Assembly: GCF_003234655.2 (NCBI RefSeq)
Contig: NZ_CP126271.1
Span: 186,001-250,000 of the forward strand
From: Curtobacterium sp. MCLR17_007
GTDB taxonomy: Bacteria; Actinomycetota; Actinomycetes; Actinomycetales; Microbacteriaceae
Direction: 5' to 3'
Length of the DNA stretch: 64,000 nt
Positions within the stretch are counted from its first letter, which is position 1, and each line of letters starts with the position of its first letter. Below, piece by piece: positions 15,247-34,940 of this stretch. The translations under genes were made by a program, and so were the position numbers. Below the pieces are notes generated by a model. The model did no database searches, was not told the origin of the DNA, and saw nothing but the letters and a program-made list of their open reading frames with translations.

Positions 15247-15272
15247 CGGTCCGCCTCGATGATCTGTGTGCC

Positions 15273-15331: not shown

Positions 15332-15393
15332 TGCCTGACGCTCGCCGCACCGCCCCCCGGGCACCCGAGCGCCGATGAACGAAGGAGTTCGCC

Positions 15394-18502: not shown

Positions 18503-20997
18503 GCACAACCGCCCCGACCACCACTGCCGAGACCCGACGCGCACTCCATGACGGCTGGACACTCCGCGCCACCAGCGGTGACGCTCCCGTCGACGTCGCA
18601 CTGCGCTCCATCCCGGCCACCGTTCCCGGGCTGGTCCACACCGACCTGCTCGCTGCGGGCATCATCCCCGACCCGTACCTGGACCGGAACGAGCAGAAGG
18701 TCACCTGGATCGGTGAGACCGACTGGGAGTACCGCACCACCTTCGCGTGGGAGCCGGACGGGCACGACAACCACGACCTCGTCTTCGAAGGCCTCGACAC
18801 CGTCGCAACGGTCACCCTGAACGGCCGGGAGCTCGCCCGCACGTTCAACCAGCACCGCACCTACCGTCTGCCTGCGGACGGGGTCCTCATCTCCGGCAGC
18901 AACGACCTCGTCGTGCACTTCGCATCACCCGTGGCGTACGCGGACCAGGCCAGTCTCGATCTCGGGTACCGGCCCCACACCTACTTCCACCCCTTCAACG
19001 CGATCCGCAAGGCAGCGTGCAACTTCGGCTGGGACTGGGGGCTCGACGCCGCCTCATCCGGCATCTTCAAGCCCGTCACGCTGCACGCCTGGTCTGGTGC
19101 TCGCATCGATGCCATTAGGCCGACCGTCACCACCGACGGAACGGACGGCGACGTCGAGATCGCGATCACGCTGCACCACGCCGGGGACGTCCGACCCGTC
19201 ACCGCCACCGCCACGCTCACCGCCCCCGACGGAACCGAGCACACCGTCGATGCGATCATCGACGGCACGGACGGCACCATCTCCATGCACGTCGACGACG
19301 TCGCGCTGTGGTGGCCTCGCGGTCACGGCGATGCGGTCCTCTACGACCTCGAGGTCAGCATCGCCGCCGCTGGCGACGACGCCGGCAACGTCCTCGCCTC
19401 GTGGCAGAAGCGGATCGGCTTCCGTACCGCCACCGTCGAGATGCTCCCCGATGCTGACGGAACGAGCTTCCAGGTCGTTGTCAACGGCCAGCCAATCTGG
19501 ATCCGGGGCGCGAACTGGATCCCCGACGATGCATTCGTCACCCGGGTCACGCGGGACCGGGTCGCCGCTCGCCTCGACCAAGCCGAGTTCGCCAACATGA
19601 ACCTGTTGCGCATCTGGGGCGGCGGCTACTACGAGTCCGACGACTTCTACGACCTCTGCGACGAACGCGGCCTCCTCACCTGGCAGGACTTCCTGTTCGC
19701 CTGCGCCTCCTACGCCGAGGAGGAGCCACTGCGTTCCGAGATCGAAGCGGAGGTCCGCGACAACGTCACACGGATCATGTCGCATCCGTCCCTGGTGCTC
19801 TGGAACGGCAACAACGAGAACATCTGGGGCTACGAGGAATGGGGCTGGGAGAAGCGCGTGCAGGGCCGCACCTGGGGCCTTGGCTACTACCTCGACCTGC
19901 TGCCCCGCGTCGTCGCCGAGCTCGACCCGCAGCGTTCCTACACGCCCGCAAGCCCATGGTCCGGCAGCATCGACCGTCCCGCGAACGAGAACGATCACGG
20001 CTCCGTCCACCTGTGGGAGATGTGGAACCGTGTCGACTACCCGCACTACCGCGACACTGTGCCTCGCTTCGTCGCGGAGTTCGGCTGGCAGGGGCCCGCC
20101 ACGTGGTCGACCATCAACCAGGCCATCTCGGACACCCCGCTCACTCCGGAGTCGCCGGGCATGATCTGGCACCAGAAGGCGCAGGACGGCAACGACAAGC
20201 TCACCGACGGCCTCGTAGCGCACCTGCCCCTCCCGGACCACACCGAGGACTGGCACTGGGCGATGTCCCTCAACCAGGCCAACGCCGTCGCCTTCGCGAT
20301 CGAGCACTGGCGGTCCTGGTCACCGAAGAACACGGGGTCGATCGTCTGGCAGCTCAACGACTGCTGGCCCGTCACGTCCTGGGCTGCAGTCGACGGCTAC
20401 GGCCGCGCGAAGCCCCTGCTCTACGCCCTGAAGCACGTCTACGCCGACCGCCTCGTCACGATCCAGCCGCGCGGCACCGGCCTCGTCACGGCCGTAGTGA
20501 ACGACTCGTCGGCTGCGTGGAACGGCGACGTGATCCTCCGCCGCCTCGCCTACGACGGCACCGAACTCGCCACGACGACCGTGACCGTGGCACTGCCAGC
20601 ACGGAGCACACAGACCGTGGACGTTCCCGCTGACGTCGCCGCATTCGGCGAGGCCGCGGCCGAGTTGCTCGTCGCAGAACTCGACGGCGAGCGTGGATTC
20701 TGGTTCCCGGTGGAGCAGCGCCACTCGCAGCTGCCAGCAGCGAACCTACGCACGGAAGTCGCTGCGGTCGCCGGCGGGTACGACGTCACGGTGACGGCGG
20801 CATCGCTTGTGCGCGACCTCGCGCTCCTGGTCGACAAGGTCGACGTCGACGCAACCGTCAGCGACATGATCGTCACACTCCTTCCCGGAGACAGCGTCAC
20901 GTTCCACGTCACGACGGCGAGGACGTTGACCCCGGAAGTGCTGACATCGGCAAGCGTCCTGCGCACGTCGAACCAGCTCGTCACTGACTGGGCATGA
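18499..20997 (+). CDS. Beta-mannosidase, glycoside hydrolase family 2
   Basis: An 832-residue cytoplasmic enzyme (no signal peptide) with the GH2 order: sugar-binding jelly roll (about 1-190), immunoglobulin-like domain (about 195-300), TIM barrel (about 305-650) and C-terminal beta domains. The acid/base is Glu440 in WNGNNE and the nucleophile Glu527 in VAEFGWQGP. The tryptophan-rich segment after WNGNNE (WGYEEWGW) and the NFGWDWG motif near residue 175 are typical of beta-mannosidases rather than beta-galactosidases. It would release mannose from imported beta-mannosides. The GTG start overlaps the upstream stop. It links the transporter to mannan or N-glycan-type substrates. Confidence 0.92.
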   Translation: MSTTAPTTTAETRRALHDGWTLRATSGDAPVDVALRSIPATVPGLVHTDLLAAGIIPDPYLDRNEQKVTWIGETDWEYRTTFAWEPDGHDNHDLVFEGLDTVATVTLNGRELARTFNQHRTYRLPADGVLISGSNDLVVHFASPVAYADQASLDLGYRPHTYFHPFNAIRKAACNFGWDWGLDAASSGIFKPVTLHAWSGARIDAIRPTVTTDGTDGDVEIAITLHHAGDVRPVTATATLTAPDGTEHTVDAIIDGTDGTISMHVDDVALWWPRGHGDAVLYDLEVSIAAAGDDAGNVLASWQKRIGFRTATVEMLPDADGTSFQVVVNGQPIWIRGANWIPDDAFVTRVTRDRVAARLDQAEFANMNLLRIWGGGYYESDDFYDLCDERGLLTWQDFLFACASYAEEEPLRSEIEAEVRDNVTRIMSHPSLVLWNGNNENIWGYEEWGWEKRVQGRTWGLGYYLDLLPRVVAELDPQRSYTPASPWSGSIDRPANENDHGSVHLWEMWNRVDYPHYRDTVPRFVAEFGWQGPATWSTINQAISDTPLTPESPGMIWHQKAQDGNDKLTDGLVAHLPLPDHTEDWHWAMSLNQANAVAFAIEHWRSWSPKNTGSIVWQLNDCWPVTSWAAVDGYGRAKPLLYALKHVYADRLVTIQPRGTGLVTAVVNDSSAAWNGDVILRRLAYDGTELATTTVTVALPARSTQTVDVPADVAAFGEAAAELLVAELDGERGFWFPVEQRHSQLPAANLRTEVAAVAGGYDVTVTAASLVRDLALLVDKVDVDATVSDMIVTLLPGDSVTFHVTTARTLTPEVLTSASVLRTSNQLVTDWA

Positions 20998-21965
20998 TCG
21001 TGACCGATCTTGCACTGGCCGTCGATCTCGGCGGCACGAAGGTCGAGACCGCGCTCGTCGAAGCGTCCGGCGCGATCGTCGACGGAAGTCGGCACCGTGT
21101 GCCGACGGGTCGCGATGCCGAACCCGACGCTTTCGCTGAAGCCCTGTCGCACGCGATCCGACAGACGCTCGCCCTGACTCCGGCCGACTCGACGCTCATC
21201 GGGGTGGGCGTCGGTTCGGCCGGGCCAATCGATCTCGCACGAGGCAGGGTCAGCCCGAAGAACCTCCCGGCCCTGGCCGGCTTCAACCTCCGGGACGCCG
21301 TCTCCAGAGAACTGCCGGGCCTGGCAGTGCAGCTGCGTCTCGACGGCACCTGCATCGCGCTTGCCGAACACTGGCTGGGCGCAGCTGCCGGATCCGCGAA
21401 TTCGATGTCCATGGTGGTCTCCACCGGTGTCGGCGGTGGCCTCATCCTGGGCGGAAAGCTCGTCTCCGGCCGAAGCGGCAACGCAGGCCACATCGGTCAG
21501 ATCCACGTCGCTGGCTTCGGCGCGGAGTCGAGCAGCGCCGACGCGACCACGCTTGAGGCGAGCGCATCCGGGACCAGCGCGGTCGGATGGGCGCAGCGCC
21601 TGGGCTGGCCGGGACGTTCCGGGGAAGACCTCGCGGTGTCCTGCGCAGCAGGAGACGACATCGCCTGGCGGGCCGTGCGGCGTTCCGCCGCAGCCGTCGG
21701 TCAAGCCATCGCCAGCGCGACGACCTTGCTCGACCTCGAGATCGTCGCCATCGGCGGCGGCTTCTCCCTGGTCGTCCCCGACTACATCGATCTCGTCCGT
21801 ACCGCAGCGCTGGAAGCAACCGTGTTCGAGTACGCGACCACGGTCCGCATCGAGCCCGCGCGTCTCGGCGCCGACGCGCCCCTCCTCGGCGCAGCCGCGT
21901 TGATCCACCGGTCTGCGATGGCGGCCACCGACTCTCCCATCAGCCACCTCGTCACCATCAGCTGA
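20994..21965 (+). CDS. ROK-family sugar kinase-like protein
   Basis: A 323-residue ROK protein without an HTH. It has the phosphate-1 motif (AVDLGGTKVETAL), the catalytic-region Asp in RLDGTCIALAEHW, and VVSTGVGGGLILGGK. A sugar kinase producing mannose or glucose 6-phosphate after the beta-mannosidase is the natural role. Unusually, the segment that normally carries the zinc motif (GEIGH followed by CxCGxxGCLE) reads GHIGQIHVAGFGAESSS with no cysteine, so it belongs to a divergent branch. The ATG overlaps the beta-mannosidase stop (ATGA); it ends the operon. Confidence 0.85.
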   Translation: MIVTDLALAVDLGGTKVETALVEASGAIVDGSRHRVPTGRDAEPDAFAEALSHAIRQTLALTPADSTLIGVGVGSAGPIDLARGRVSPKNLPALAGFNLRDAVSRELPGLAVQLRLDGTCIALAEHWLGAAAGSANSMSMVVSTGVGGGLILGGKLVSGRSGNAGHIGQIHVAGFGAESSSADATTLEASASGTSAVGWAQRLGWPGRSGEDLAVSCAAGDDIAWRAVRRSAAAVGQAIASATTLLDLEIVAIGGGFSLVVPDYIDLVRTAALEATVFEYATTVRIEPARLGADAPLLGAAALIHRSAMAATDSPISHLVTIS

Positions 21966-22224
21966 TCTGTTGCGGCAGCCGTCTACCCGCTCCTCCAGCC
22001 GCAGAAGTCTGAGCACCGATGCAGCGCACAACATCCCACACCACGACGGCCAGTCCAAGTCCGCCGCGCCGAAGCTGGGTCCGTTCTGCACAAGGGAACC
22101 TCACGATGCCGCGATGCGGCCTTCGTGACCCTGCTGCGGGGGAGCAGCGCCGCCAGTGACGCCCTGCTCTCCCGCGGCGACCACCCGGGTGGCACTTCCC
22201 TCCCGTGGAACGCGACAGCGAGTC

Positions 22225-23445
22225 TCAGCGTGCGGCCTCGAGCAGGTCGCCGCGGGGACCGAACGGTCGAACCACGAACCAGAGGGCGACGACCACGAAG
22301 ACCTGCGCGAAGAGGATGACGCCGACGGTGGCTGCCAGCGGGGGAAGCAGTGAAGCTCCGATGACTGCTGTCGACAGCACCCCCAGACCCTGGCGGCTTG
22401 CGTTCAACCAACTGGCGGCGGTACCGATGTCGCTTCCGCGGCGCGACAACGCCCAGGTCTGCACGGCTGGGGTGTTGAGCCCGAGGAAGAGTGTGAAGCT
22501 CCAGAGCAGCGCCAACACGCCCCAGAAGCTCGCGGTTCCGGTCGCGACCATCGTCGCGAGCCCAATCGCTGAGACGAGGAGGCCCGAGGTGGACAGCGCG
22601 ACCAGCCATCGTAATTCCACCCGCGATGCGAGCCGAGCACCGAGCTGCGACCCGACCATCATGCACAGTGCGTGCGAGGCAAAGGCCACACCGTATCCGG
22701 TCGTAGTCAAGCCGAAGTGGCGTTGGAAGATCACCGATGAAGCCGACAGGTACCCGTACATGCCGCCCCACGACGCCGCTGTCACCGCGACCAACCCCAC
22801 GAACTGTCGATCGCGGAGCAGGGACACGACACCGCTGATGCGAGTCCGCATAACGTTGACGCGAACCGTTGGCCGAAGCATGGTCTCGCCTGCGATCGAC
22901 CGCGTCGCGACGCCGAGGACGAGCCCGTACACGGCCAGCAGGACAAACACACCCCGCCACGTCACAACGGTCAGCAGGAACGATCCCAGGAGCGGCCCGA
23001 CCGCGATCGCGATGCCCGACACGAGTGTCATCGAGGCGATGGTCCGCAGCATGCGAACGCCGCTGAACCGGTCCCGGACCATCGCTATTGCGAGCACTCC
23101 CACGGAGGCCGACGCCGCACCTTGGAGGACGCGCGCAACGGTCAGGACCGTGATGTCCGGCGCCAGCGCGCACGCGAAAGACGCAGCCACGTGTACGGCT
23201 GTGGCGACCGTCAGCGGCGTGCGGCGCCCGACGACATCGCTCCACGCTCCCGCGAGCAGCTGCCCGACGACCATGCCGATCATCGCGCCGGTGAAGGTGA
23301 ACTGGATCGACGACTCGGGCACCGCGAGTTCCGCCGCGATTCGCGGAAACGCAGGAAGGTAGATGTCGATCGTGAGCGTACTGAGGGTCTGCAGGAAACC
23401 GAGGGCTGCCGCGAGGACTGCCGGGCGAGGCTCTGACCGCATCAC
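22225..23445 (-). CDS. MFS transporter (drug-efflux Bcr/CflA-like)
   Basis: A 406-residue protein with twelve predicted membrane segments. The start of the first helix (TLTIDIYLPAFPRIAAEL) and the loop after helix 2 (AGAWSDVVGRRTPL, the MFS motif A) are those of the Bcr/CflA/EmrB-type exporters, including the D-x-Y-L-P signature. It is coupled to the upstream ROK regulator by an ATGA overlap, so sugar-responsive control is likely. Export of a sugar analogue or by-product, rather than a general drug, is a reasonable inference from that position. It converges on the ROK kinase gene. Confidence 0.88.
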   Translation of the reverse strand: MMRSEPRPAVLAAALGFLQTLSTLTIDIYLPAFPRIAAELAVPESSIQFTFTGAMIGMVVGQLLAGAWSDVVGRRTPLTVATAVHVAASFACALAPDITVLTVARVLQGAASASVGVLAIAMVRDRFSGVRMLRTIASMTLVSGIAIAVGPLLGSFLLTVVTWRGVFVLLAVYGLVLGVATRSIAGETMLRPTVRVNVMRTRISGVVSLLRDRQFVGLVAVTAASWGGMYGYLSASSVIFQRHFGLTTTGYGVAFASHALCMMVGSQLGARLASRVELRWLVALSTSGLLVSAIGLATMVATGTASFWGVLALLWSFTLFLGLNTPAVQTWALSRRGSDIGTAASWLNASRQGLGVLSTAVIGASLLPPLAATVGVILFAQVFVVVALWFVVRPFGPRGDLLEAAR

Positions 23446-24632
23446 AACGTCGCGCCGACCCGCTCCCGACGCATCGGGTCGGTGATGAACGCACTGAACG
23501 CCACAGCGCCGGCACCGATCACCAGTTGCTGCTCTCCGAGCGCGGGTGTCTTCAAAACCGGCGGTTCGCTGGATGACATCAGGTTCGCGCTCACCGCACG
23601 CTCGAGGTGCTCACGGCCGTGATCGAGCAGGACACCGAAGAATCCGCCGAGCAGGATCAGTTGCGGGTCGTACGCGAAGGTCGCAGCTCGCAGCGCCACA
23701 CCGAGGTAGTCAGCCTGGCGTACGAGGAAGCGTTCGAAGGCGGCACTGGGGTCGGCACGGATGGCATCACGGATGCGCTGAAGACTCCCGTCTCGCGCTC
23801 CGAACACAGATGCCAGCTGATGCTGCGATACGACCGTCGTGAGGCACCCAACGCTCCCGCAGATACATGTTGGGCCGTCGTTTGCGACGGTGACATGCCC
23901 AAGACGCGCGGCGGATCCCGAGCGGCCGTCGAGGATGTGGCCGTCGACCATCGCGGCGGCTCCGATGCCGCCGGGGCCGCCGTAGAAGGAGACGATGTCA
24001 TCCGCACCGCGGGCTGCGCCCCAGAGCGTCTCCGCGTGGAGCCCGACCTGCGAGTCGAACGCCAAGACGGACGGGAAACCAGTGGCGTCCTGCAGCAACT
24101 GAGCGAAGGGTGCGTTCCGCCACCGCAGATGCGGGGCGTTCAGGACGAAAGTCTTGTCTTTCGTCACGCGCCCCGGGATGGCCGCGCACAAGCCGACGAC
24201 GACCGCGTCACCGTGTCGCTGGCGAAGTTGCTGCAGAAGCTCCCCAACCAGAGCGGCAGCTTCTTCGGGAGTGGGTACGTCCGAAGAAGCCGCGTGGGCC
24301 TCGTCGACCACCCTGCCGTCGAGCGATACGAACGCGACGTGGACACCGTCGACATCGGTGTTGACGCCGACGCCGAGGTAGCGATCCGTCGCAGCCACCG
24401 ACGCGGACGGACGCCCCTTCGCTCCGAGGTGATCGTCGAAGCGCTGCGTGACGATGCCTGCCGATTCCAACTCCTCGACCAGAGAAGCAACGCTTGAGCG
24501 TGCAAGACCCGTTGCTCGCGTGATTTGAGACCGAGTCGTTGCACCATCGCGGTGCAGAACGGACACAACCGATGACAGGTTCTGGCGACGAACAGCGTCG
24601 ATGCTTCGACCGACTGGCGGGATGAGCGACAT
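23442..24632 (-). CDS. ROK-family transcriptional regulator of the esterase/transport operon
   Basis: A 396-residue ROK repressor. The winged helix is at about 15-75 (TRSQITRATGLARSSVASLV). The sugar-binding part has VLAFDSQVGLHAE, GPGGIGAAAMVDG and the zinc motif RLGHVTVANDGPTCICG then SVGC. A GGAGG lies 6 nt before the ATG at 24632. The first gene of an operon with the MFS exporter, divergent from the ThuA-like gene. A TGTTC-N7-GAACA dyad in its own promoter and a second copy over the promoter of the rightward esterase operon make it the probable regulator of both. Confidence 0.9.
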   Translation of the reverse strand: MSLIPPVGRSIDAVRRQNLSSVVSVLHRDGATTRSQITRATGLARSSVASLVEELESAGIVTQRFDDHLGAKGRPSASVAATDRYLGVGVNTDVDGVHVAFVSLDGRVVDEAHAASSDVPTPEEAAALVGELLQQLRQRHGDAVVVGLCAAIPGRVTKDKTFVLNAPHLRWRNAPFAQLLQDATGFPSVLAFDSQVGLHAETLWGAARGADDIVSFYGGPGGIGAAAMVDGHILDGRSGSAARLGHVTVANDGPTCICGSVGCLTTVVSQHQLASVFGARDGSLQRIRDAIRADPSAAFERFLVRQADYLGVALRAATFAYDPQLILLGGFFGVLLDHGREHLERAVSANLMSSSEPPVLKTPALGEQQLVIGAGAVAFSAFITDPMRRERVGATL

Positions 24633-24658
24633 GGTTCCTCCGAAGACCGAATGGTGTC

Positions 24659-24688
24659 ATAGTAGCCATATGTTCACGTCTCGAACAA
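24659..24688 (-). promoter_or_regulatory. Promoter of the ROK/MFS operon with operator copy 1
   Basis: Reading leftward: TTGTTC (24688-24683), an 18-nt spacer and TACTAT (24664-24659), followed by a short leader with GGAGG before the ROK ATG. The dyad TGTTC-ACGTCTC-GAACA (24671-24687) covers the -35 box and spacer. It is the mirror image of copy 2 at 25352-25368, with a shared 17-nt identical core (CATATGTTCACGTCTCG). The same copy includes the ATG of the divergent ThuA-like gene, whose own -10 (CATAGT, 24658-24663) ends 6 nt before it. Confidence 0.65.
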
Positions 24689-25365
24689 GCGACCGTCGGC
24701 CTCAAGCGCGTCTCTGGACCGGAAACGGGAGCTTCCAAGACGAGTACCACGACTTCGATTCGACGTCTGCGCACATCGCCGCCATCCTCGAAGCCGTCGG
24801 CGTCGAGGTGCTCACCGAACCGATTGACCAGGCCATCGCGACCGAGCCACACGCCGATCTGATCCTGGTGAATACGGCAAAACGTCGACCAGCATCGCGG
24901 GAGTCCGACGCACTCGTGAACGCGCGTTTGGCGGACATGCTCCATTCGAGCACGCCCCTGCTTGCCTTCCACGTATCAGCGACGGCGTTCGCAGAGGTGC
25001 CAGCATGGGAACAGCTACTCGGCGGGCGATGGGTTGCGGAACAGACCTGGCACCCGCCGATCGGTCCAGCACGGATCGAGCCCACGGAAGCTGGAACAGA
25101 GCTTCGTGCTCCAGCGCGAACGTTCTCGCTCTTCGACGAGCGCTACACGGACCTGCGAGTGTCTCCATGGACGCGGATCCTCGCCGAGCATGAGCAGGAC
25201 GGGAACAGGCATCCAGTCGTCTGGACGCACGAGTTCCGCGGACTCCGAACGGCGTACGACGGACTCGGACACGACCTCCGCTCCTATGAGTCCGACGAGC
25301 ACATCCAACTCATCCAGGCTATCGTTCGGTGGCTCCTCCCAGATTTTTCTTTGTCCGAGACGTGA
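24670..25365 (+). CDS. ThuA-like domain protein
   Basis: A 231-residue cytoplasmic protein of the ThuA (trehalose-utilization-like) fold, a relative of class I glutamine amidotransferases. Seen: an N-terminal beta strand (ARLWTGNGSFQDEYHDF), STSAHIAAILEAVGVEVL, LLAFHVSATAFAEVPAWEQL followed by LGGRW, and PVVWTHEFRGLRTAYDGLGHD, which is the ThuA signature PVxWxxxxGxGRVFYxxxGH in diverged form. ThuA proteins take part in catabolism of disaccharides through 3-keto sugars. The start and stop codons lie inside two inverted operator copies. It has no Shine-Dalgarno and is probably leaderless. It lies between the ROK gene and the esterase operon. Confidence 0.85.
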   Translation: MFTSRTSDRRPQARLWTGNGSFQDEYHDFDSTSAHIAAILEAVGVEVLTEPIDQAIATEPHADLILVNTAKRRPASRESDALVNARLADMLHSSTPLLAFHVSATAFAEVPAWEQLLGGRWVAEQTWHPPIGPARIEPTEAGTELRAPARTFSLFDERYTDLRVSPWTRILAEHEQDGNRHPVVWTHEFRGLRTAYDGLGHDLRSYESDEHIQLIQAIVRWLLPDFSLSET

Positions 25366-25378
25366 ACATATGTATGCT
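25351..25378 (+). promoter_or_regulatory. Promoter of the esterase/transport operon with operator copy 2
   Basis: TTGTCC (25351-25356), a 16-nt spacer and TATGCT (25373-25378) form a rightward promoter upstream of the carboxylesterase. The operator TGTCC-GAGACGT-GAACA (25352-25368) covers the -35 box and most of the spacer, one base short of a perfect TGTTC-N7-GAACA dyad. The identical 17-nt core CGAGACGTGAACATATG (25356-25372) is the inverse of the copy in the ROK promoter. Repression by the neighbouring ROK protein is inferred. Confidence 0.65.
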
Positions 25379-25405
25379 CGACTCACACCATTGGAGGAGA
25401 CCGCG

Positions 25406-26896
25406 ATGACGCGCACGAACACCGGCTTGACCGCTCGGACACCACAGGGGACCGTCGTCGGACGCTCCGTCTCCACCCCAGACGGCAGCGCAGTCGCCTT
25501 CCTCGGCATTCCGTATGCACACGCTGAGCGCTTCAAGGCTCCGCAGCCTGCGATGTCGTGGCCGGGGGAGCGTCTCTGCGTCGCCGCCGGGCCGGCAGCT
25601 CCGCAGGATCCGATACGCGCAGACGTCATGGATGAGTCGGGGTGCTTGAACGCCAACGTCTGGGTTCCGGCAAATGCCGCAGCTTCACCGCTTCCCGTCC
25701 TCGTCTGGATCCACGGCGGAGGGCACCTGTACGGGTCGAACACGAATGCGCTGTGCGACGGCGCTCGACTCGCGGCGGCAGAGGGAATCATCGTGGTCGC
25801 GATCAACTACCGGCTCGGCGCTCTTGGCTACCTCAGCCTTGCGAGCGTCCTGGGATCCGAATACGCCGACAGTTCGAATCTGGCGCTGCTCGACGCAGTC
25901 GCAGCGCTGCGCTGGGTGAGCGTGAGCATCGCAGAGTTCGGCGGGGATCCTGCGCGGGTCACCATCATGGGGCAGTCCGCCGGCGCCGTCATGGTCGCGA
26001 GTCTTCTCGCGATGCCATCGGCTAGCGGACTCTTCTCTCGGGCGCTCATCGAGAGCGGCAGCGGAGAACGGGCGCGGGATGCAGGTCACGGCGAGCGTCT
26101 CACCGCAGATCTCCTCACGGAACTCGCTGCAACGCCGACCGATCTGCTCACGATGCCCGCCGAGCAGATCGTGGCTGGTCAAGAGGCGCTGGTCAGGAGA
26201 CGTTCCGCCGGCCGCCCGAACCTCGATCTCGCCTTCGCGCCACTCATCGACGGCCGGACGCTTACCGCCCGACCAGTCGACTTGATCCGAGAAGGCGCCT
26301 CCGCAGACGTCGAGCTTGTCATCGGCACCAACCGCAACGAAGCATCCGGGTTCGTCGACCTTCGAGCCGAACCCGCCGTCGACGTGCTCGAAGCGCACGT
26401 CGAGCAGCTCATGCACGGGTCGCCCGCAGCGTCGGTCGTGACCTACCGCGCCGCGCTCGATGCAGACACCAACCGCCCGAACAGCCTCGCCGAGACCCTA
26501 GAAGCCTGCATGGCAGACCTCATCTACCGGCAGCCCTCCCAACGTCTGCTCGACGCGCGTCGAGACGCGTCAGCGTGGACACGCTCGTACCTCTTCGAAT
26601 GGCAACGCCCGGACGCCGATTGGATCAGGCGTGCCGGCCACTCGCTCGAGCTCCCGTTCATCTTCCGACACATCGACGACAGCGCCGATGCGGAAGCCGA
26701 AGTAGGGGTCGAGCCGCCACTGCAACTGCGGGACCAGATGAGCGCCATGTGGGGCGCGCTGGTTCGCGACGAGGATCTCCAACCCTGGCCGACCTATGGA
26801 GAGCACCGCCGCACCGCGATCTTCAGCGAACACTTCCGCATCGAATCTGACCCCCGCGGCTCCATCCGTCGACTGGTCGCGCAGCACAACGCCTGA
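25406..26896 (+). CDS. Type B carboxylesterase
   Basis: A 496-residue alpha/beta hydrolase of the carboxylesterase type B family. Seen: the N-terminal GxVxG region (TPQGTVVGRSV), FLGIPYAHAERFKAP, the oxyanion motif WIHGGGH, NYRLGALGYL, and the nucleophile elbow GQSAGA (usually GESAGA). Later, NRNEASGF is in place of the acid region and GHSLELPFIF supplies the histidine. It is cytoplasmic by sequence. In this operon it may remove acetyl or other acyl groups from imported mannan or xylan oligosaccharides. Start at the ATG at 25406, which follows GGAGGAG; it is the first gene of a run ending with ManD. Confidence 0.9.
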   Translation: MTRTNTGLTARTPQGTVVGRSVSTPDGSAVAFLGIPYAHAERFKAPQPAMSWPGERLCVAAGPAAPQDPIRADVMDESGCLNANVWVPANAAASPLPVLVWIHGGGHLYGSNTNALCDGARLAAAEGIIVVAINYRLGALGYLSLASVLGSEYADSSNLALLDAVAALRWVSVSIAEFGGDPARVTIMGQSAGAVMVASLLAMPSASGLFSRALIESGSGERARDAGHGERLTADLLTELAATPTDLLTMPAEQIVAGQEALVRRRSAGRPNLDLAFAPLIDGRTLTARPVDLIREGASADVELVIGTNRNEASGFVDLRAEPAVDVLEAHVEQLMHGSPAASVVTYRAALDADTNRPNSLAETLEACMADLIYRQPSQRLLDARRDASAWTRSYLFEWQRPDADWIRRAGHSLELPFIFRHIDDSADAEAEVGVEPPLQLRDQMSAMWGALVRDEDLQPWPTYGEHRRTAIFSEHFRIESDPRGSIRRLVAQHNA

Positions 26897-26955
26897 GCGG
26901 CCACCCTCCACCCACTCACCCCGCACCGCCACTGACACTTCGAAGGAGAAGTGAC

Positions 26956-28659
26956 ATGCCTGAATCCCCGACCCGAACCTCGTTCTCACGCCGAAGCATC
27001 CTCGCGTTCGGAATGGCGAGCGCTGCCGGGCTCGCGCTCACCGCCTGCACCGGCGGCGGCGCCGTCATCTCCCAGAGCCTCCTCGCGGGCGGCGCAGTGC
27101 GGCTGCCAACGTACCGGAAGGCTCGAGCCGCGATCGGCGCGAACCGCTTGACCAGCACTGTCGAAGGGCTGCCGGACATCTACACGTCGTCTCCGACGAG
27201 GTACTTCACGAGTGTCGACGCGCCTCCAGCGGCGGGCTCCACGATTCGCACACTGCAAATGCTCTGGTTCTCCCCTCCCGCGCCCGAGGGAAAGAACCCA
27301 GTGTGGAGGCGACTCAACCGAGACCTCCGCGCAAGTTTTGACCCGCTGCTCGCCAGTGCGGACAACTACAACAGCAAGCTCGCGACCGTCCTCGCCGGCG
27401 GGAAACTCCCCGACCTGATGTTCGTACAGGACCAGGTGCCCGTCGGTGCCCAAGCCTTCACCGCTGGGGCGTTCGCTGACCTCAGCCACTATCTCTCCGG
27501 CGACAAGATCCTCGACTACCCGAACCTGGCGAACATCCCGACGTACGCCTGGAAGGCCGCGCTGAAGAACGGTCGTATCGCCGGGATCCCACACGTCAAC
27601 CCAGCGGTCACCTCCGCTCCGACCATTCGGACTGACCTGATGCAGCTCGCCGGCTTCTCTCAACAGCCGACGTCGACGACGGAGCTGCTGGACATGTTCA
27701 CCGCGATCGGGAAGATCGGGTCCCATCAAGGCAAACGCGTCTGGGCCATCGGCGGACTCGGCACCGGTCAGATCCAGACGCTCGCACGATGGATGTTCGG
27801 CGTGGGTGCGGACTGGAGGATCGACAACCGCGGAAATCTCACCTACTTCCTCGAGACGGACGAGTTCGAAGAGGCCGTCGGCTACCTCCGACTGCTTTGG
27901 CAACGCGGCGCATTCCACCCCGACGCGCTCGCGCTCGGTACCGACGTGCAGCGCAGCAAGGAGAAGCAGCTCTGGACGGAGGGGCACTTCGCGTTCGAGC
28001 ACGACTCGCCACCATGGCTGGCGCAGCAAGGTATGGAACAGGTCGAAGAGGGCACGAAGGGGGCCGCAGTCGACTTCCTCGTCCCGCCGGTGGCTCCCGG
28101 CCGTTCTCTGGCCGTCGCACAGGATCCCGGCTACTGGGGCATCGTCGCCATCGCCGCCGCCGCGGAGAAGGACCCGCGGCGGATGCGGGAACTCCTCGGC
28201 GTCTGCAACTACTTCGCCGCGCCGTACGGATCGTCCGAGGCGCTCTTCCTCGGCAGCGGCATCGAGGGATACAACTTCCGGTTCGGCACCGGGCACGCCG
28301 TCGAGCCCATCGACAACGCTGATGCCACCACCAATCTGCAAGGCCTCCGATGGCTCGGGGCGAACGCACCGTCGTACATCGCGCTCGATGCGAAGAACGC
28401 CAAGCGGAAGGACAGCCTCCTACACGAGTTGGAGCTCCTGACCACTGCAGCGAAGGTCGACCCGACCGTCGGGATGTACTCCCCGACACAGGTCAGCACG
28501 TCCGCGCAACTCACCGCCCTCAACGAGGACTGGCGCAACAAAGTGGTCTCCGGCCGCGCACCGCTTTCAGCCATCGCGACGTGGCGCAAGCAATGGCGCG
28601 CCAACGGCGGCGACCAGGTCCGGCACGAATTCGAGAAAGCGATCCGCGATGCGAAGTGA
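26956..28659 (+). CDS. ABC transporter solute-binding lipoprotein (LplA-like)
   Basis: A 567-residue binding protein, longer than the first one in this locus, as is usual for LplA/aldouronate-type binders. The N-terminus has a twin-arginine-like start (SFSRRSILAF) and a lipobox ending at Cys31 (LALTAC), so it may be exported folded by Tat and then lipidated. The mature region contains LQMLWFSPPAPEGKNPVWRR and KLPDLMFVQDQVPVGAQAF. GAAGGAG precedes the ATG. It overlaps the first permease gene by 11 nt. Substrate is likely an oligosaccharide with uronic acid or mannose, inferred from the permease family and from ManD downstream. Confidence 0.9.
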   Translation: MPESPTRTSFSRRSILAFGMASAAGLALTACTGGGAVISQSLLAGGAVRLPTYRKARAAIGANRLTSTVEGLPDIYTSSPTRYFTSVDAPPAAGSTIRTLQMLWFSPPAPEGKNPVWRRLNRDLRASFDPLLASADNYNSKLATVLAGGKLPDLMFVQDQVPVGAQAFTAGAFADLSHYLSGDKILDYPNLANIPTYAWKAALKNGRIAGIPHVNPAVTSAPTIRTDLMQLAGFSQQPTSTTELLDMFTAIGKIGSHQGKRVWAIGGLGTGQIQTLARWMFGVGADWRIDNRGNLTYFLETDEFEEAVGYLRLLWQRGAFHPDALALGTDVQRSKEKQLWTEGHFAFEHDSPPWLAQQGMEQVEEGTKGAAVDFLVPPVAPGRSLAVAQDPGYWGIVAIAAAAEKDPRRMRELLGVCNYFAAPYGSSEALFLGSGIEGYNFRFGTGHAVEPIDNADATTNLQGLRWLGANAPSYIALDAKNAKRKDSLLHELELLTTAAKVDPTVGMYSPTQVSTSAQLTALNEDWRNKVVSGRAPLSAIATWRKQWRANGGDQVRHEFEKAIRDAK

Positions 28660-29662
28660 TGCGAGCACCGTCAACCCCGCGGTTGAATCCGCCATCGAAG
28701 AGTCGATCGTCGCCCAGAGCGCACCGGACGTCCGCGCCGAGTCAGGTCCAGTCCGGGGGAAGCGCTCGCTTCTCGCGCGGATGAAGCGAGAACGGTCGAT
28801 GTACCTGTTCATCCTCCCCGGGATGCTCTTCTTCCTCGTCTTCTGCTACGTCCCACTCCTCGGCAACGTCATCGCGTTCCAAAACTTCTCACCCTTCCTG
28901 GGGATCAGCCGCTCCCCTTGGGTCGGGCTACAGAACTTCGCGAACATGTTCACCGACCCCGAGCTCGTCCGCGCGATCATCAACACGATCGAGATCTCGT
29001 TCCTACAGATCGTCTTCTCGTTCCCAGCGCCGATCCTGCTCGCGTTGCTGCTGAACAGCTTGCTATCGGACCGGCTGCGCCGATTCGTGCAGTCGGTGGT
29101 CTACCTGCCGCACTTCATCTCATGGGTGATCGTAATCGCGATCTGGCAGCAGATCCTCGGCGGCGCCGGCCCTGTGGCCGGGCTCTTCGCGAGCATCGGC
29201 TTGGACCACGTCAACATCATGGCCAACCCCGATACGTTTAAGATCCTGGCCACGTCCCAAGTCATCTGGAAAGACATGGGTTGGGGAACGATCATCTTCT
29301 TCGCCGCGATCTCCGGCATCCCCCGAGAACTCTACGAAGCAGCAGCGTGCGACGGCGCGAGCTCGTGGCGCCGCACCTGGCACGTCACCCTTCCAGGGCT
29401 CGTTCCCGTCACCTCGCTCCTGCTCGTGCTCACCGTCGGGAACGTGCTTTCCGTCGGTTTCGAGCAGCTGCTCCTGCAGCAGCCCATCGTCGGAGCCGAC
29501 GCCTCGCAAGTCATTGACACGTTCGTTTACTTCCGCGGTGTCGTCGGAGGCGACTGGGGCCTCGCAGCCGCGGCCGGCCTGGTCAAGGGCGCCATCGGCA
29601 CACTTCTCGTCCTCGGGGCCAACAAGGTCGCCAAGAAGATCGGAACAGGAGGGATTTTCTGA
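28649..29662 (+). CDS. ABC transporter permease (LplB/YtcP-type)
   Basis: A 337-residue permease with six membrane segments. The opening RERSMYLFILPGMLFFLVFCYVP-type helix (LFILPGMLFFLVFCY), then LLGNVIAFQNFSPFLGISRS and the EAA loop ELYEAAACDGASSWRRTWHV, are typical of the LplB branch that carries aldotetraouronic acids and other complex oligosaccharides. The soluble N-terminus is about 45 residues. It overlaps the binding-protein gene and is coupled to the next permease by a TGATG junction. No ATPase gene lies in the operon. Confidence 0.9.
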   Translation: MRSDASTVNPAVESAIEESIVAQSAPDVRAESGPVRGKRSLLARMKRERSMYLFILPGMLFFLVFCYVPLLGNVIAFQNFSPFLGISRSPWVGLQNFANMFTDPELVRAIINTIEISFLQIVFSFPAPILLALLLNSLLSDRLRRFVQSVVYLPHFISWVIVIAIWQQILGGAGPVAGLFASIGLDHVNIMANPDTFKILATSQVIWKDMGWGTIIFFAAISGIPRELYEAAACDGASSWRRTWHVTLPGLVPVTSLLLVLTVGNVLSVGFEQLLLQQPIVGADASQVIDTFVYFRGVVGGDWGLAAAAGLVKGAIGTLLVLGANKVAKKIGTGGIF

Positions 29663-30588
29663 TGGTCGCCATCGAAGCCCGTCACGCACGACGCCAACGA
29701 CCGCAACGCGCCCGCGACGCACGACCGCCATGGGTCGAAGTCCCATCCGTCGCCATCCGACTCGCGAAGATCACCGTCATCGCCATCATCGTGGTCGTGA
29801 TGCTCTACCCCTTCATCTACATCATCGCCATGAGCTTCGCGTCCGCGAACTCCGACCTCAGCGGCTTCTGGCCCACGGCGTTCTCATTCGACGCCTATCA
29901 GTCCATCCTCGGCGGCGGCGTGGTCACCCGAGCGTTGATGGTGAGCGCCTTCGTGACGATCGTCGGTACGTTCTGCTCGTTGGCACTCACGACCACCCTG
30001 GCTTACGGACTCACACGGACCCGCGACGTGCCCTTCGCACGCGCAATCCTCCTCCTCGTGCTCGCCACCATGTTCTTCGGCGCCGGCATCATCCCCAACT
30101 TCCTCGTCGTGAAGTCCCTCGGACTCATCGACTCGCTCTGGTCGCTCATCCTGCCCGTGATGGTTTCGGCCTTCAACGTGGTCGTCGTCCGGAACTTCTT
30201 CATGGGCATCCCCGCAAGCCTCCTCGAAGCAGCACGCATTGACGGAGCATCGAACTGGACCATCTTCCGAAGCATCATCCTGCCGTTGTCCAAGCCGGTC
30301 CTCGCCGTCATAGGGCTGTTCTCCGCCGTGGGTTACTGGAACAGCTACTTCAACGCTCTGCTCTACATCAGCGACACGGCGAAGTGGCCGATCCAAGTCG
30401 TCCTGAACCAGTACGTGATCCAGGGGTCGCTCCTCGCGAACCTGCAGGGAAGCAACATCGTCACTCCGCCATCGCAATCCGTCCAGATGGCAGTCGTGGT
30501 CCTCGCAACGCTGCCCATCCTGATCGTCTACCCCTTCCTGCAGCGGCACTTCGCCCACGGGATGCTCACGGGGGCGGTCAAGGAATGA
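29662..30588 (+). CDS. ABC transporter permease (LplC/YtcP-type)
   Basis: A 308-residue permease with six membrane segments, partner of the LplB-type protein. Recognisable parts are MLYPFIYIIAMSFAS after the first helix, FFGAGIIPNFLVVKSLGLID, and the EAA loop SLLEAARIDGASNWTIFRSI. It ends YPFLQRHFAHGMLTGAVKE, the standard LplC-type C-terminus. The ATG follows the upstream stop as TGATG, and its stop overlaps the aldo/keto reductase ATG (ATGA). Confidence 0.92.
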   Translation: MVAIEARHARRQRPQRARDARPPWVEVPSVAIRLAKITVIAIIVVVMLYPFIYIIAMSFASANSDLSGFWPTAFSFDAYQSILGGGVVTRALMVSAFVTIVGTFCSLALTTTLAYGLTRTRDVPFARAILLLVLATMFFGAGIIPNFLVVKSLGLIDSLWSLILPVMVSAFNVVVVRNFFMGIPASLLEAARIDGASNWTIFRSIILPLSKPVLAVIGLFSAVGYWNSYFNALLYISDTAKWPIQVVLNQYVIQGSLLANLQGSNIVTPPSQSVQMAVVVLATLPILIVYPFLQRHFAHGMLTGAVKE

Positions 30589-31526
30589 GCGGTCGATCAG
30601 AAGCCGCGCGGCCGTTCGGCGCCACCGGCCTTCAAGTACCCCCGATCACCATCGGAACCGCCCGTTGGCGCGATGGGACCGGGCGGGTGGCTCGCGCGGC
30701 ACACACGGACGCGTTGCTGACGAGCCTGACCGACGCTGACCAACCGTTCGTATTGGACACAGCGAACAGCTACGGCAACAGCGAGCAGCGCATCGGCGAC
30801 TTCTACGCGTCCCGAGGAGGCGTGCCAGGACACGCCCTCATCCAGACCAAGGCCGATCGCGACTTCGCGACCGGGGACTTCTCCGGCGCCCGGATGCGAC
30901 AGTCCCTGCAGGAGAGCTGCGATCGGCTCCGACTCCCGGCGCTGCCCATGGTCTACATCCATGACCCAGAGAACACATCGTGGGATCAAGCGATGGCAGC
31001 CGACGGGCCGGTCGGAGCCCTGATCGAAGCACGGGAGGAAGGGCTCATCGAGCACCTGGGGCTCTCGGGAGGAACCGTCGATGTGATGGAGCGGTACGTG
31101 AGGACGGGCCACTTCGAGGCGCTGGTCACCCACATGCGTTGGACGCTCGTTGACCGATCCGCCGACGCGCTGCTCTCTGCCGCACACGAGCGCGGAATGG
31201 GCATCATGAACGCTGCCCCCTACGGAGGGGGGCTCCTCGCCCAGTACCCGGCAGCCACGTCGCGGTACGCATACGGCGAGGCAGCTCCCGAGGTGGCCGC
31301 CGCCGCAGATTCGATCGGCCGCGCCTGTGCCGATCACGACATCCCCATCGCAGCCGCAGCACTCCAGTTCTCCGCGCGAGACGACCGCATCGACTCCACG
31401 ATCGTCGGTGTGCTCGAGCAGAACGACTGGAACGCGACGAGCGAGCTCCTCCGCGTCGCCGTGCCGCAGTCGTTGTGGGACACCGTGGAGGCGGTCCTGC
31501 CGCCGGCGTCGCTCTGGCAGCGCTAG
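30585..31526 (+). CDS. Aldo/keto reductase
   Basis: A 313-residue NADPH-dependent oxidoreductase with an (alpha/beta)8 barrel. Catalytic residues can be placed: Asp and Tyr in LDTANSYGNSEQRIG, Lys in IQTKAD, and His in VYIHDPE. The ending DSTIVGVLEQND is the cofactor-binding part of the family. It is most like the D-threo-aldose 1-dehydrogenase/L-fucose dehydrogenase group, which oxidises free sugars to lactones, a role that would fit a route to aldonic acids such as mannonate for ManD. The ATG overlaps the upstream permease stop. Confidence 0.88.
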   Translation: MSGRSEAARPFGATGLQVPPITIGTARWRDGTGRVARAAHTDALLTSLTDADQPFVLDTANSYGNSEQRIGDFYASRGGVPGHALIQTKADRDFATGDFSGARMRQSLQESCDRLRLPALPMVYIHDPENTSWDQAMAADGPVGALIEAREEGLIEHLGLSGGTVDVMERYVRTGHFEALVTHMRWTLVDRSADALLSAAHERGMGIMNAAPYGGGLLAQYPAATSRYAYGEAAPEVAAAADSIGRACADHDIPIAAAALQFSARDDRIDSTIVGVLEQNDWNATSELLRVAVPQSLWDTVEAVLPPASLWQR

Positions 31527-31620
31527 GTCGAGAAGCTCGGGCAGAACCTCATCACGCGTGCCGCCGAGTGCGGGAGCTCAACCAGCTCGCGATCGCAGCT
31601 CGCATCGAGACAGCGCGCAT

Positions 31621-31652: not shown

Positions 31653-31707
31653 GAGCAACGCGACGAGCGGCGCTGCACCGAACCACCATCGAACGAAAGG
31701 ACCACGT

Positions 31708-33651
31708 ATGAGACGCGCTGCAACCCACCTCCCCGTTGACGGAGGCAAGCAGGCCTGGATCGGGGTGAACTTCTGGTCGAAGACCGGTGGGCCGCTGATG
31801 TGGCGCCACTACGACGGGGAGGTCATCAGTGCGGAACTCGCGCAGCTCAAGCAACACGGGATCAACCTCACCAGGAGCTTCCTCTTCTGGCCCGATTTCC
31901 ATCCGCAGCCGGATGAGCTGTCTGAGGAGATGCTGGCCAAGTTCGCGGACTTCCTGCGTCGGCACGAGCGTGCAGGCGTCCAGACCATACCAACGTTCAT
32001 CGTCGGGCACATGTCCGGTGAGAACTGGGACCCTGTGTGGCGGAACGGTCGAGACGTATTCGGCGACGTGTGGTTCGTCGGCCGCCAGGCTTGGTACATC
32101 AAGGAAGTCGTACGACGATTCGCCGCCGACCCCGTCATCGCTGGCTGGCTCTTGACCAACGAGGTGCCCATCTACGCCGATTGGCAGTCACGCGGTGTCG
32201 GCACCCTGGACGCCGATGACGTCTCGGCGTGGGCACAGATCCTGATCGACGCAGTCCGTGCTGGCGGCGGACAGCAACCGGTCTCGATCGGCGATGGTTC
32301 GTGGGGTGTGGAGGTCACCGGGAAGGACAATGGGTTCCGGAGCCGTCAGCTCGAGCCGCTCGTCGACTTCCTCGGCCCGCATGTCTACCGCATGGAAGAC
32401 GACCAGGTCCGACAGCATCTCGGAGCCGCGTTCATCTGCGAGCTCCTCGACTTCCATGAGAAACCGGTCGTGCTCGAGGAGTTCGGCGTCACCAGTGACT
32501 ACGTCGGGGAAGAGAACGCTGCGCACTACTACCGACAGGTCCTGCACAACACACTGCTCGCCGGTGCGACCGGCTGGATCCCCTGGAACAACGTCGACTA
32601 CGACGCGCAAGCCGAGATCGCACCGTACTCGCATCACCCGTTCGAGATGCACTTCGGGCTCATCGATGACCAGGGGAGACCGAAGCTCCAGCTGCTCGAG
32701 GTGCAGAAGTTCGCGGCGCTGCTCGAACGAGTCCAGTTCTCCCAACTCCAGCGGCCTGACACATCGACCGCGATACTGGTCTCGTCGTTCTTGGAGGCGA
32801 TGTACCCGTTCACCACACCCGAGGACGGACCGACCGTGTTCACTGTCGCACGGCAGTCCTACGTCGCCGCGCGAGAAGCTGACCTGCCCGTGGCAGTGGT
32901 CCGAGAAGCAGATGGAGTGCCGAGGGATGTGCGGCTCATCATTGTGCCCGCGACGAAAGCCCTCCGGGCCGACACATGGCCGGAGCTCATGGACCGGGCG
33001 GAGAGCGGAGCGCTCGTGTATGCCTCGTACTTCAACGGCGTTCATGCCAATCAACGAGGGTCCTGGTGGCCGAAGCTCGATGAGACATTCGGTGTGAAGA
33101 AGCAGCTCCGGTATGGTCTCATCGCTCCAGTGGAGCACGACACCGTCACGATCGAGTTCCTCACGGATCTCGGTGACATCGCCCGCGGGGAACGCCTCAC
33201 CTTCGCCGTCGGAGGTACCGCAGACGGGCGCTCGTTCCTCCCGGTTGAGCTCGACGGTGCTGAGGTGATCGCGGTCGACGGCGATGGTTGGCCTGCGCTC
33301 GTTCGTCGGAACGTCGGTGCGGGAGCACTGGTCCTGTCGACCTACCCGTTCGAGTACTTCGCGGCGTCGACGCCCCGGGTCAACCCGGAACCGACAGCGC
33401 GCCTCTACGCTGCTCTCGCCAACGAGGCAGGAGCGACTCCTGAAGTCACCGTGGAGAGCCCACTTGTCCTCACCGCAGTCATGGAGCACTCCGACGGCCG
33501 CCGGTTTGTCTGGTTCGTGAACCAGAGCGATTCGACGATGGACGTCGGTCCAAAGACCTCCGCGACGATGCGGACTCTCGACAGTGGGGCTCCTATCGCC
33601 ACGGTGCGGCTCGAGCCGTTCGGCGTGGAAGTGTTGGAGTTGCTTTCGTGA
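31708..33651 (+). CDS. GH5-like glycoside hydrolase with C-terminal GATase-like domain
   Basis: A 647-residue cytoplasmic enzyme. Residues about 10-350 form a clan A TIM barrel of GH5/GH42-like type: WIGVNFWSKTGGPLMWRHYD at the start, an acid/base Glu152 in LLTNE, and a nucleophile Glu258 in VLEEFGV. Residues about 400-570 (TAILVSSFLEAMYPFTTPED, VRLIIVPATKAL) resemble the flavodoxin/GATase-like trimerisation domain of GH42 proteins. Beta-mannanase or beta-mannosidase activity is the best guess given the neighbours; exo-glucosidase or galactosidase activity is possible. GAAAGGA precedes the ATG. It overlaps ManD by GTGA. Confidence 0.82.
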   Translation: MRRAATHLPVDGGKQAWIGVNFWSKTGGPLMWRHYDGEVISAELAQLKQHGINLTRSFLFWPDFHPQPDELSEEMLAKFADFLRRHERAGVQTIPTFIVGHMSGENWDPVWRNGRDVFGDVWFVGRQAWYIKEVVRRFAADPVIAGWLLTNEVPIYADWQSRGVGTLDADDVSAWAQILIDAVRAGGGQQPVSIGDGSWGVEVTGKDNGFRSRQLEPLVDFLGPHVYRMEDDQVRQHLGAAFICELLDFHEKPVVLEEFGVTSDYVGEENAAHYYRQVLHNTLLAGATGWIPWNNVDYDAQAEIAPYSHHPFEMHFGLIDDQGRPKLQLLEVQKFAALLERVQFSQLQRPDTSTAILVSSFLEAMYPFTTPEDGPTVFTVARQSYVAAREADLPVAVVREADGVPRDVRLIIVPATKALRADTWPELMDRAESGALVYASYFNGVHANQRGSWWPKLDETFGVKKQLRYGLIAPVEHDTVTIEFLTDLGDIARGERLTFAVGGTADGRSFLPVELDGAEVIAVDGDGWPALVRRNVGAGALVLSTYPFEYFAASTPRVNPEPTARLYAALANEAGATPEVTVESPLVLTAVMEHSDGRRFVWFVNQSDSTMDVGPKTSATMRTLDSGAPIATVRLEPFGVEVLELLS

Positions 33652-34940
33652 TCGGCACGACCTCGGGCCGCCCCGACACCTGGGCCAGCGCCGACCGCGG
33701 GCAGCTCATCGACAGGGCCGAGGTGATCGTCACCAGTCCCGACCGCAACTTCGTCACGCTGAAGGTGACGACGGCCGACGGGGTCACCGGTCTCGGCGAC
33801 GCGACGCTGAACGGTCGCGAGCTGTCGGCTGCCGCGTACCTCACCGAGCACGTCGTGCCGCTGATGCTCGGGCGCGATGCCAGCCGCATCGAGGACGCCT
33901 GGCAGTTCCTCTACCGCTCGTCGTACTGGCGTCGCGGCCCGGTCACGATGGCCGCGATCGCCGCCGTGGACATGGCGCTCTGGGACATCAAGGCGAAGGT
34001 CGCAGGGATGCCGCTGTACCAGTTGCTCGGCGGAGCGTCGCGGACCGGGCTGATGGCGTACGGGCACGCGTCCGGCAAGGAGCTGCCGGAGCTCTTCGAC
34101 TCGATCCGGGCGCACCAGGAAGAGGGCTACCGCTCGATCCGCGTGCAGACGGGTGTGCCGGGGCTGGAGTCGATCTACGGCATCGCCTCGAACGCGACCA
34201 CCGAGGGCAACTCCGGCGTCCGCTACGACTTCGAGCCCGCCCAGCGTGGTGCGTTCCCGGCGATGGAGGACTGGGACACCCGCGCGTACCTGCGGCACCT
34301 CCCGACCGTCTTCGAGGCAGTCCGCAACGAGTTCGGTCCCGAGCTGCCGCTCCTGCACGACGGGCACCACCGGATGACCCCGCTGCAGGCCGCGAAGCTC
34401 GGCAAGTCGCTCGAGCCGTACGACCTGTTCTGGCTCGAGGACTGCACCCCGGCGGAGAACCAGGAAGCCCTCCGGCTCGTCCGGCAGCACACCACGACGC
34501 CGCTCGCGATCGGTGAGGTCTTCAACACGATCTGGGACTTCAAGGACATCATCCGCGACCAGCTCATCGACTACGTCCGCGGTGCCGTCACGCACATGGG
34601 TGGCGTGACACCGCTGAAGAAGACGATGGACTACGCGGCGATGTACCAGATCAAGTCCGGGTTCCACGGGCCGACGGACATCTCGCCGGTCGGTCTCGCG
34701 GCGCAGATGCACCTCGGGATGGCGATCCACAACTTCGGCATCCAGGAGTACATGCAGCACGGCGACCGCACGAACCAGGTCTTCCAGCAGACCTTCACGT
34801 TCACCGACGGCTACCTGCACCCGGGCGACCAGCCGGGTCTCGGTGTCTCGCTCGACGTGGACGAAGCGGACAAGTACCCCTACGAGCAGGCGTACCTGCC
34901 GTTCAACCGCCTGGCCGACGGCACCGTCCACGACTGGTAG
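33648..34940 (+). CDS. manD: D-mannonate dehydratase, enolase superfamily
   Basis: A 430-residue ManD/RspA-type enzyme that dehydrates D-mannonate (some members D-gluconate) to 2-keto-3-deoxygluconate. The capping domain is at about 15-125, then the barrel. The metal ligands have the exact ManD spacing: Asp238 (LHDGHH, with His240 the likely general acid), Glu264 (WLEDCTP) and Glu290 (AIGEVFN). ASGKELPELFDSIRAHQEEG and VRYDFEPAQRG are also ManD features. The GTG start overlaps the GH5-like stop. It shows that the operon reaches the level of aldonic acids; the following 2-keto-3-deoxygluconate kinase and aldolase are not in the window. Confidence 0.93.
   Translation: MIGTTSGRPDTWASADRGQLIDRAEVIVTSPDRNFVTLKVTTADGVTGLGDATLNGRELSAAAYLTEHVVPLMLGRDASRIEDAWQFLYRSSYWRRGPVTMAAIAAVDMALWDIKAKVAGMPLYQLLGGASRTGLMAYGHASGKELPELFDSIRAHQEEGYRSIRVQTGVPGLESIYGIASNATTEGNSGVRYDFEPAQRGAFPAMEDWDTRAYLRHLPTVFEAVRNEFGPELPLLHDGHHRMTPLQAAKLGKSLEPYDLFWLEDCTPAENQEALRLVRQHTTTPLAIGEVFNTIWDFKDIIRDQLIDYVRGAVTHMGGVTPLKKTMDYAAMYQIKSGFHGPTDISPVGLAAQMHLGMAIHNFGIQEYMQHGDRTNQVFQQTFTFTDGYLHPGDQPGLGVSLDVDEADKYPYEQAYLPFNRLADGTVHDW

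Follow-up and report, generated by a model that had tools for sequence, protein, structure and literature searches.

The locus studied here raises the question of what two mirror-image copies of a short sequence are doing on either side of a ThuA-like gene, and which protein reads them. Each copy stands in front of an operon that points away from that gene, one led by a ROK-family regulator gene and the other by a carboxylesterase gene. The genes and predicted sites in this part of the window (the whole 64-kb stretch of DNA that was analyzed) are as follows.

22225..23445, minus strand: MFS transporter (PF07690); overlaps the end of the ROK gene and is presumably cotranscribed with it
23442..24632, minus strand: ROK-family transcriptional regulator, presumed repressor (396 aa; PF00480, E 3.2e-36, and HTH_24)
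24659..24688, minus strand: predicted ROK/MFS promoter (-35 box TTGTTC at 24688-24683, 18-nt spacer, -10 box TACTAT at 24664-24659); overlaps copy 1
24669..24689, minus strand: predicted operator copy 1, CTTGTTC-GAGACGT-GAACATA read toward the ROK gene
24670..25365, plus strand: ThuA-like gene (PF06283, E 1.2e-13), between both predicted operators
25350..25370, plus strand: predicted operator copy 2, TTTGTCC-GAGACGT-GAACATA read toward the esterase operon
25351..25378, plus strand: predicted esterase-operon promoter (-35 box TTGTCC at 25351-25356, 16-nt spacer, -10 box TATGCT at 25373-25378); overlaps copy 2
25406..26896, plus strand: carboxylesterase (PF00135, E 1.5e-77), the first gene behind copy 2
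26956..30588, plus strand: solute-binding protein and two ABC permeases (PF13416/PF01547; PF00528 twice)
30585..31526, plus strand: aldo/keto reductase (AKR; PF00248); relatives at 49 to 52% after the second site in 4 of 4 loci of genera g50 and g79
31693..33651, plus strand: GH5-like protein, start codon provisional (PF00150; nearest solved structures 7bob and 7lr1)
33648..34940, plus strand: D-mannonate dehydratase ManD (NF043051, 679 bits, cut-off 550)

RESULTS

Gene content and the ROK protein

A sequence-only reading of this DNA had named the neighbors as a ROK/MFS operon, a ThuA-like gene, and an esterase-transporter-AKR-GH5-ManD operon, and all of these assignments stood, the transporter being a solute-binding protein with two permeases. 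The nearest solved relatives of the GH5-like protein are an endo-beta-mannanase and GH5_18 enzymes, and the gene content as a whole points to a mannoside or mannonate as the substrate. The adjacency of the MFS and ROK genes was retained in all four orthologous loci of g50 and g79.

The ROK domain (PF00480) covers residues 89 to 377 of the regulator and scored 125.8 bits against a cut-off of 22.9. An N-terminal winged helix-turn-helix was also recognized, with HTH_24 and HTH_IclR barely above their cut-offs. From residue 10 onward the protein aligns with another ROK regulator and with Mlc, which is among its nearest solved structures. A cysteine-rich CxCGxxGC motif defines the ROK family, and it is present here as CICGSVGC, aligned with CYCGNHGC of Mlc. 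The protein is an equivalog of neither Mlc nor NagC, its NCBIfam scores being 107.7 bits versus a cut-off of 530 and 91.9 bits versus a cut-off of 650, respectively. In a tree of 20 chosen sequences, the six ROK orthologues formed a clade with a support of 1.000, and their recognition-helix region reads RSSVA, compared to RST[IVT] in 14 of 14 aligned paralogues.

Inverted copies of an extended core

The 17-nt core CATATGTTCACGTCTCG was found, as the earlier reading had it, in inverted copies at 24667-24683 on the plus strand and at 25356-25372 on the minus strand. With up to three mismatches allowed, these two were its only matches in the window, compared to a chance expectation of 0.10, and 0 of 100 shuffled windows had two matches. 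The 3.8-Mb genome (2 contigs) held one further match, with three mismatches, and only the two exact copies. The likeness between the copies spans 22 bases with one mismatch. The dyad TGTTC-N7-GAACA was likewise where it had been reported, perfect at 24671-24687 and with one mismatch at 25352-25368. By itself, this short dyad is no rarity: allowing one mismatch, it matched three times in the window, compared to 1.0 expected, and 9 of 100 shuffles reached three matches. Because the short dyad is close to chance, the argument depends on the extended core, which is identical in both copies, and on conservation. The inverted dyad of the proposed operator was upheld, but the unit itself had to be redrawn, from TGTTC-N7-GAACA to the 21-bp TTTGTYC-N7-GAACATA. 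This unit is an imperfect dyad with the promoter-orientation consensus YTTGTBC-N7-GAACWTA, and it has the sequence attributes expected of a ROK operator: its inverted halves are T-rich and A-rich at their outer ends, and it lies over the -35 box and spacer of predicted promoters.

In genome G000, the two copies were the only exact matches to the extended operator patterns. Looser matches were more numerous than in reversed-pattern controls, with 34 versus 17 for TTGTYC-N7-GAACAWW at up to two mismatches and 9 versus 0 for TTTGTBC-N7-GAACWTA. A like excess (28 versus 12 and 3 versus 0) was seen in genome G025, which has no orthologue of the ROK gene. All three G025 matches to TTTGTBC-N7-GAACWTA recur in G000, and four two-mismatch matches to this pattern in G000 are absent from G025. 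Weaker members of the regulon may be among the looser G000 matches.

Conservation in a close relative

The congener G011 carries a ROK orthologue with 91% identity, and its DNA around the sites is 82% identical (a Microbacteriaceae bacterium PS02333 contig, L004, is 100% identical to L007 of G011 over 4188 bases). The arms and adjoining bases of both copies are unchanged in G011 (9/9, 6/6, 7/7, and 9/9), two of the seven spacer bases are changed in each copy, and the ThuA body is identical at 505 of 652 positions. Beside copy 1, the ROK leader (32/34) and the ROK start (33/33) show almost no change either, and both spacer changes fall at third codon positions of ThuA, where they are synonymous. 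Given these near-unchanged flanks and silent changes, copy 1 makes no stand-out footprint in the window-G011 pair. Copy 2 is the cleaner footprint; its spacer changes alter the last two ThuA residues, and identity in the DNA past the promoter drops to 19/26. The caution about copy 1 does not apply to the other genera.

Conservation in other genera

Among 398 genomes of the family, the best ROK matches by E-value besides the window's own, at 50 to 52% identity, were in G237, G362, and G285 of genus g50 and in G143 of genus g79, and the next-best match was at 42% among the matches listed. In these four loci, MFS and ROK genes are divergent from ThuA, and a site lies both before and after ThuA. 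Sites were found beside all five orthologues of the ROK gene, so the earlier reading passed the sequence part of its check: both positions have clear sites in G011, G237, G362, and G285, and the post-ThuA site is clear in G143. The sole exception is the G143 site before ThuA, which is degenerate and ambiguous in orientation. The post-ThuA site reads TTTGTCC-N7-GAACATA in the three g50 genomes and TTTGTCC-N7-GTACATA in G143, and the pre-ThuA site, read toward ROK, is TTTGTGC-N7-GAACTTA in g50 and TTTGTGC-N7-TGACAAA in G143. In G011 and g50, the sites are clearly mirror images; the pre-ThuA site of G143 is nearly symmetric and scores 13.5 when reversed versus 11.5 in the expected orientation. 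Center-to-center distances are 681 bp in the window and G011, 727 bp in each of the g50 genomes, and 706 bp in G143.

In g50 and g79, a different operon follows the second site, with permeases only 28 to 33% alike and then the AKR gene. A GH5 gene comes after the AKR gene in G237 and G362, and none was found within the fetched stretch of G285 or G143. The window's esterase and transporter have relatives at other places in the three g50 loci; the fetched stretch of G143 showed none. What is conserved is the placement of this site, which directly follows ThuA and precedes a transporter-AKR operon.

A cross-genus model used only the arms, not the spacers, of six distinct sites from g50 and g79, and both strands of the 64-kb window were scored with it. 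Copy 2 ranked first (25.4) and copy 1 second (18.3), compared to 14.3 for the best other place. In 15 runs with simulated windows, the mean maximum was 13.8 and the highest was 17.0, a value slightly exceeded by copy 1. Conversely, with a model of the four window and G011 sites, the two top-ranking places in each of the four g50 and g79 loci were those expected.

The best other place of the first model, at 15265 in front of an ABC-GH2 operon, was tried as a third site of the window and rejected, its score being within the simulated range. The sole part of 15151-15450 that aligned with G011 was 15368-15450. The ABC-GH2 operon has no credible site and was left out of the regulon. Nearby, a second ROK regulator gene (13084-14478, minus strand) faces a gene for a LacI-type sensor domain protein (scanned over 14404-15243, plus strand), which precedes an ABC-GH2-ROK kinase operon; a Pfam scan of this sensor protein found no DNA-binding domain.

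The sequence-only reading also held that the start and stop codons of ThuA lie inside the two copies. The ATG (24670-24672) and the TGA (25363-25365) are indeed within the cores, but the overlap seems to be lineage-specific. In g50 and g79, as judged by eye, the ThuA ATG and a ribosome-binding-like stretch are downstream of the first site, and the gene ends before the second; for instance, the ThuA open frame of L085 ends at 10733, and the second site begins at 10735. Since ThuA seems to start and end outside the sites in these genera, the codon overlaps look incidental. ThuA itself looks selected as a protein, because its changes relative to G011 are biased to the third codon position (32, 25, and 94 of 231 at each position; protein identity, 78%).

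Co-occurrence of the sites with the ROK gene

The search pattern was derived from known sites, which makes the positives partly circular but not the negatives: within the genus, the ROK orthologue was present in 2 of 66 genomes (that of the window included), the exact site pair in precisely those two, and not even one exact site in any of the 64 congeners without the orthologue (0/64). The conspecific G025 lacks both the orthologue (best match, 37%) and the exact site. In g50, 3 of 7 genomes have the orthologue; these three have the site pair, and none of the other four has any site. Exact matches were found in 13 of the 398 family genomes, four with two sites, all of which have the orthologue, and nine with one. 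G143, the fifth genome with the orthologue, had no exact match to the pattern. An order-wide sample searched at E 1e-85 yielded the window and G143 (2/396) and no further orthologue.

None of the 12 locus proteins is encoded within ~1.5 kb on each side of the nine single matches. The reversed pattern gave 8 single-match family genomes (counted by eye) versus 9 for the real pattern, so most of the nine may be due to chance. The sequence TTTGTCCACGGAGAGAACATA occurs at about position 1500 of both L120 and L121, which are from two species of genus g45, and in L120 it is near the start of a gene resembling an ABC sugar-binding protein (read from the translation). It is possibly an operator of another ROK regulator with like half-sites.

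Window positions 13097-31528 are nearly all collinear with G011 contig C249, in pieces that are 78 to 87% identical. Given that the orthologue and the exact site are absent from 64 congeners, the locus is probably a patchily distributed carbohydrate island.

Predicted promoters under the sites

The copies had been placed over two outward promoters. The boxes are present (TTGTTC-18-TACTAT and TTGTCC-16-TATGCT), but these promoters are weak by E. coli standards, and neither was found in a sigma-70 consensus scan with a threshold of at least 9 of 12 bases. All four hexamers are identical in the 82%-identical relative G011. The g50 equivalent of the esterase-operon promoter is TTGTCC-17-TACTGT, and no clear -10 box toward ROK was seen by eye in g50 and g79.

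On the opposite strand, CATAGTAGCCATATG at window positions 24658-24672 contains a hexamer resembling a -10 box, 6 nt ahead of the ThuA ATG, and is identical in G011; no ribosome-binding site is visible. To judge from the spacing, our guess is that this hexamer, CATAGT (24658-24663), would suit a leaderless ThuA start at 24670. A leaderless ThuA mRNA overlapping the ROK -10 box on the opposite strand is possible.

Sites at other ROK loci

The dyad TGTTC-N7-GAACA, with up to one mismatch, was found at none of the 28 loci of the genus's 37 to 40% ROK paralogue. Spacer length was surveyed in 49 other ROK-bearing loci, which were chosen and include six overlapping pairs, using a TTTGTT/AACAAA dyad with up to two mismatches; there were nine matches at spacer 7, compared to 0 to 3 at each other spacer from 1 to 15. 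Seven of the nine were assigned a place: two before a ROK gene (L018 and L084), one before a LacI-like gene (L091), and four between ROK and solute-binding protein genes (L090 and L092; genes named from translations). Eight of the nine have a left arm ending in G, compared to C in the clade, and the innermost G and C both hold in 4 of the 9. TTTGTTG-N7-CAACAAA-like sites were seen at 882 and 994 of L090, 2110 and 2209 of L092, and 1426 of L084, with an innermost left base of G, not C, in 4 of these 5. The survey suggests that spacer 7 might be usual between TTTGT-type half-sites of ROK operators in the family and that the altered recognition helix may be linked to the inner operator base. However, a search upstream of the ROK gene gave no TTTGTT/AACAAA dyad in any of six larger 40%-type loci, which argues against the generality of spacer 7. 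Nor was one found at the same stringency in the three g50 loci, where the first site is far from the consensus.

DISCUSSION

Known ROK operators

Published work offers several parallels. In Streptomyces coelicolor, RokB (Sco6115) binds both its own promoter and a PnovH site, TTTGTTC-N11-GAACAAA, that overlaps a start codon (PMC4856308). Like the regulator studied here, it is an actinobacterial ROK protein; each of its half-sites is one base from that of the window, and an overlap with a start codon is common to both. However, the novH spacer is 11 rather than 7, so the window sites are alike to the RokB type and not of it. Given these half-sites, the operator that had been called new is so only in part. 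NagR of Bifidobacterium longum subsp. infantis is a negative regulator of the ROK family whose palindromic operators over promoter boxes were predicted by comparative genomics and then tested (PMC9599254). Of its 11 predicted operators, 10 overlap a -10 or -35 box (PMC9599254); for ROK regulators, an operator in such a position is read as pointing to repression. It differs in having a global regulon of 29 genes and GlcNAc-type effectors (PMC9599254). In Streptomyces lividans, the ROK repressor CsnR likewise has a palindromic operator, which lies at the promoter of a glycoside hydrolase gene (PMC3048496, PMC4856308), but its quoted binding sequence has other half-sites (PMC4856308). ManR, a mannose-responsive ROK regulator of Thermotoga maritima, resembles the present case in having two operons and two candidate sites, and its operons encode mannan and mannoside hydrolases plus an ABC transporter (PMC3750489). 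It belongs to another phylum, however, and the likeness is drawn from its role and target genes. Searches of open-licence papers found no ROK-ThuA operator.

A model for the two copies

From the position over the -35 box and spacer, together with the NagR and RokB parallels, the pair is read as ROK operators. Very probably, both copies are operators of the adjacent ROK regulator, which would repress the two outward operons until a sugar binds. The comparison of genomes shows the sites as such, where they lie, that they are conserved and occur together with the ROK gene, and, save at one degenerate site, how they are oriented; binding by the adjacent ROK protein, repression, and the identity of the inducer are what we infer. 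A ROK dimer would read the half-sites TTTGTYC and GAACATA across the 7-bp spacer. At copy 1, the bound dimer would sit over the ROK-MFS promoter, on its -35 box and spacer, which would amount to autoregulation; at copy 2, it would do likewise at the esterase-ABC-AKR-GH5-ManD promoter. The half-site facing ThuA would also serve as the -35 box, and the copies would be mirror images because both promoters point outward. Both operons would stay off until the regulator binds its sugar, probably a mannoside breakdown product, and releases the DNA. The regulator would be a local, probably autoregulated repressor. An unlikely elaboration is that a ROK tetramer joins both operators, so that repression includes looping and ThuA, enclosed in the DNA loop, is silenced by the loop and by copy 1 over its start codon.

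The sites might instead belong to another regulator, a LacI-type protein or another ROK paralogue, with the adjacent ROK gene merely a target. Candidates are at hand: other ROK proteins are encoded at 13084-14478 and 54837-55931 of the window, the scan of 14404-15243 gave a LacI-type sensor domain, and a dyad of the same geometry precedes a LacI-like gene in L091 (named from the translation). Nevertheless, this is improbable: in the samples searched, the exact pair is confined to genomes with the orthologue of the adjacent ROK gene, the recognition-helix stretch is specific to the clade (RSSVA versus RST[IVT] in 14/14 paralogues), and the half-sites are one base off those of a proven ROK site. 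The repeat could also be shared promoter sequence, the same -35 box and spacer with no repressor involved, as the half-site TTGTYC is the -35 box in both copies. A promoter spacer needs no fixed sequence, yet conservation extends into it (GAACATA); the two arms complement each other over most of their length; and none of the sampled genomes that lack the ROK gene has the exact pair, which makes this very improbable. Hardly credible is chance or a recent micro-duplication. The likeness does look like a small copied patch, being limited to 22 bases with one mismatch, but in three genera sites recur at these two positions, and their spacers have diverged.

Operators of the adjacent ROK regulator thus remain the preferred reading of the two copies. 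They would provide a defined operator, supported across genera, for a ROK regulator to which no role was assigned in the searches made, and this operator stands at an apparent mannoside-use locus.
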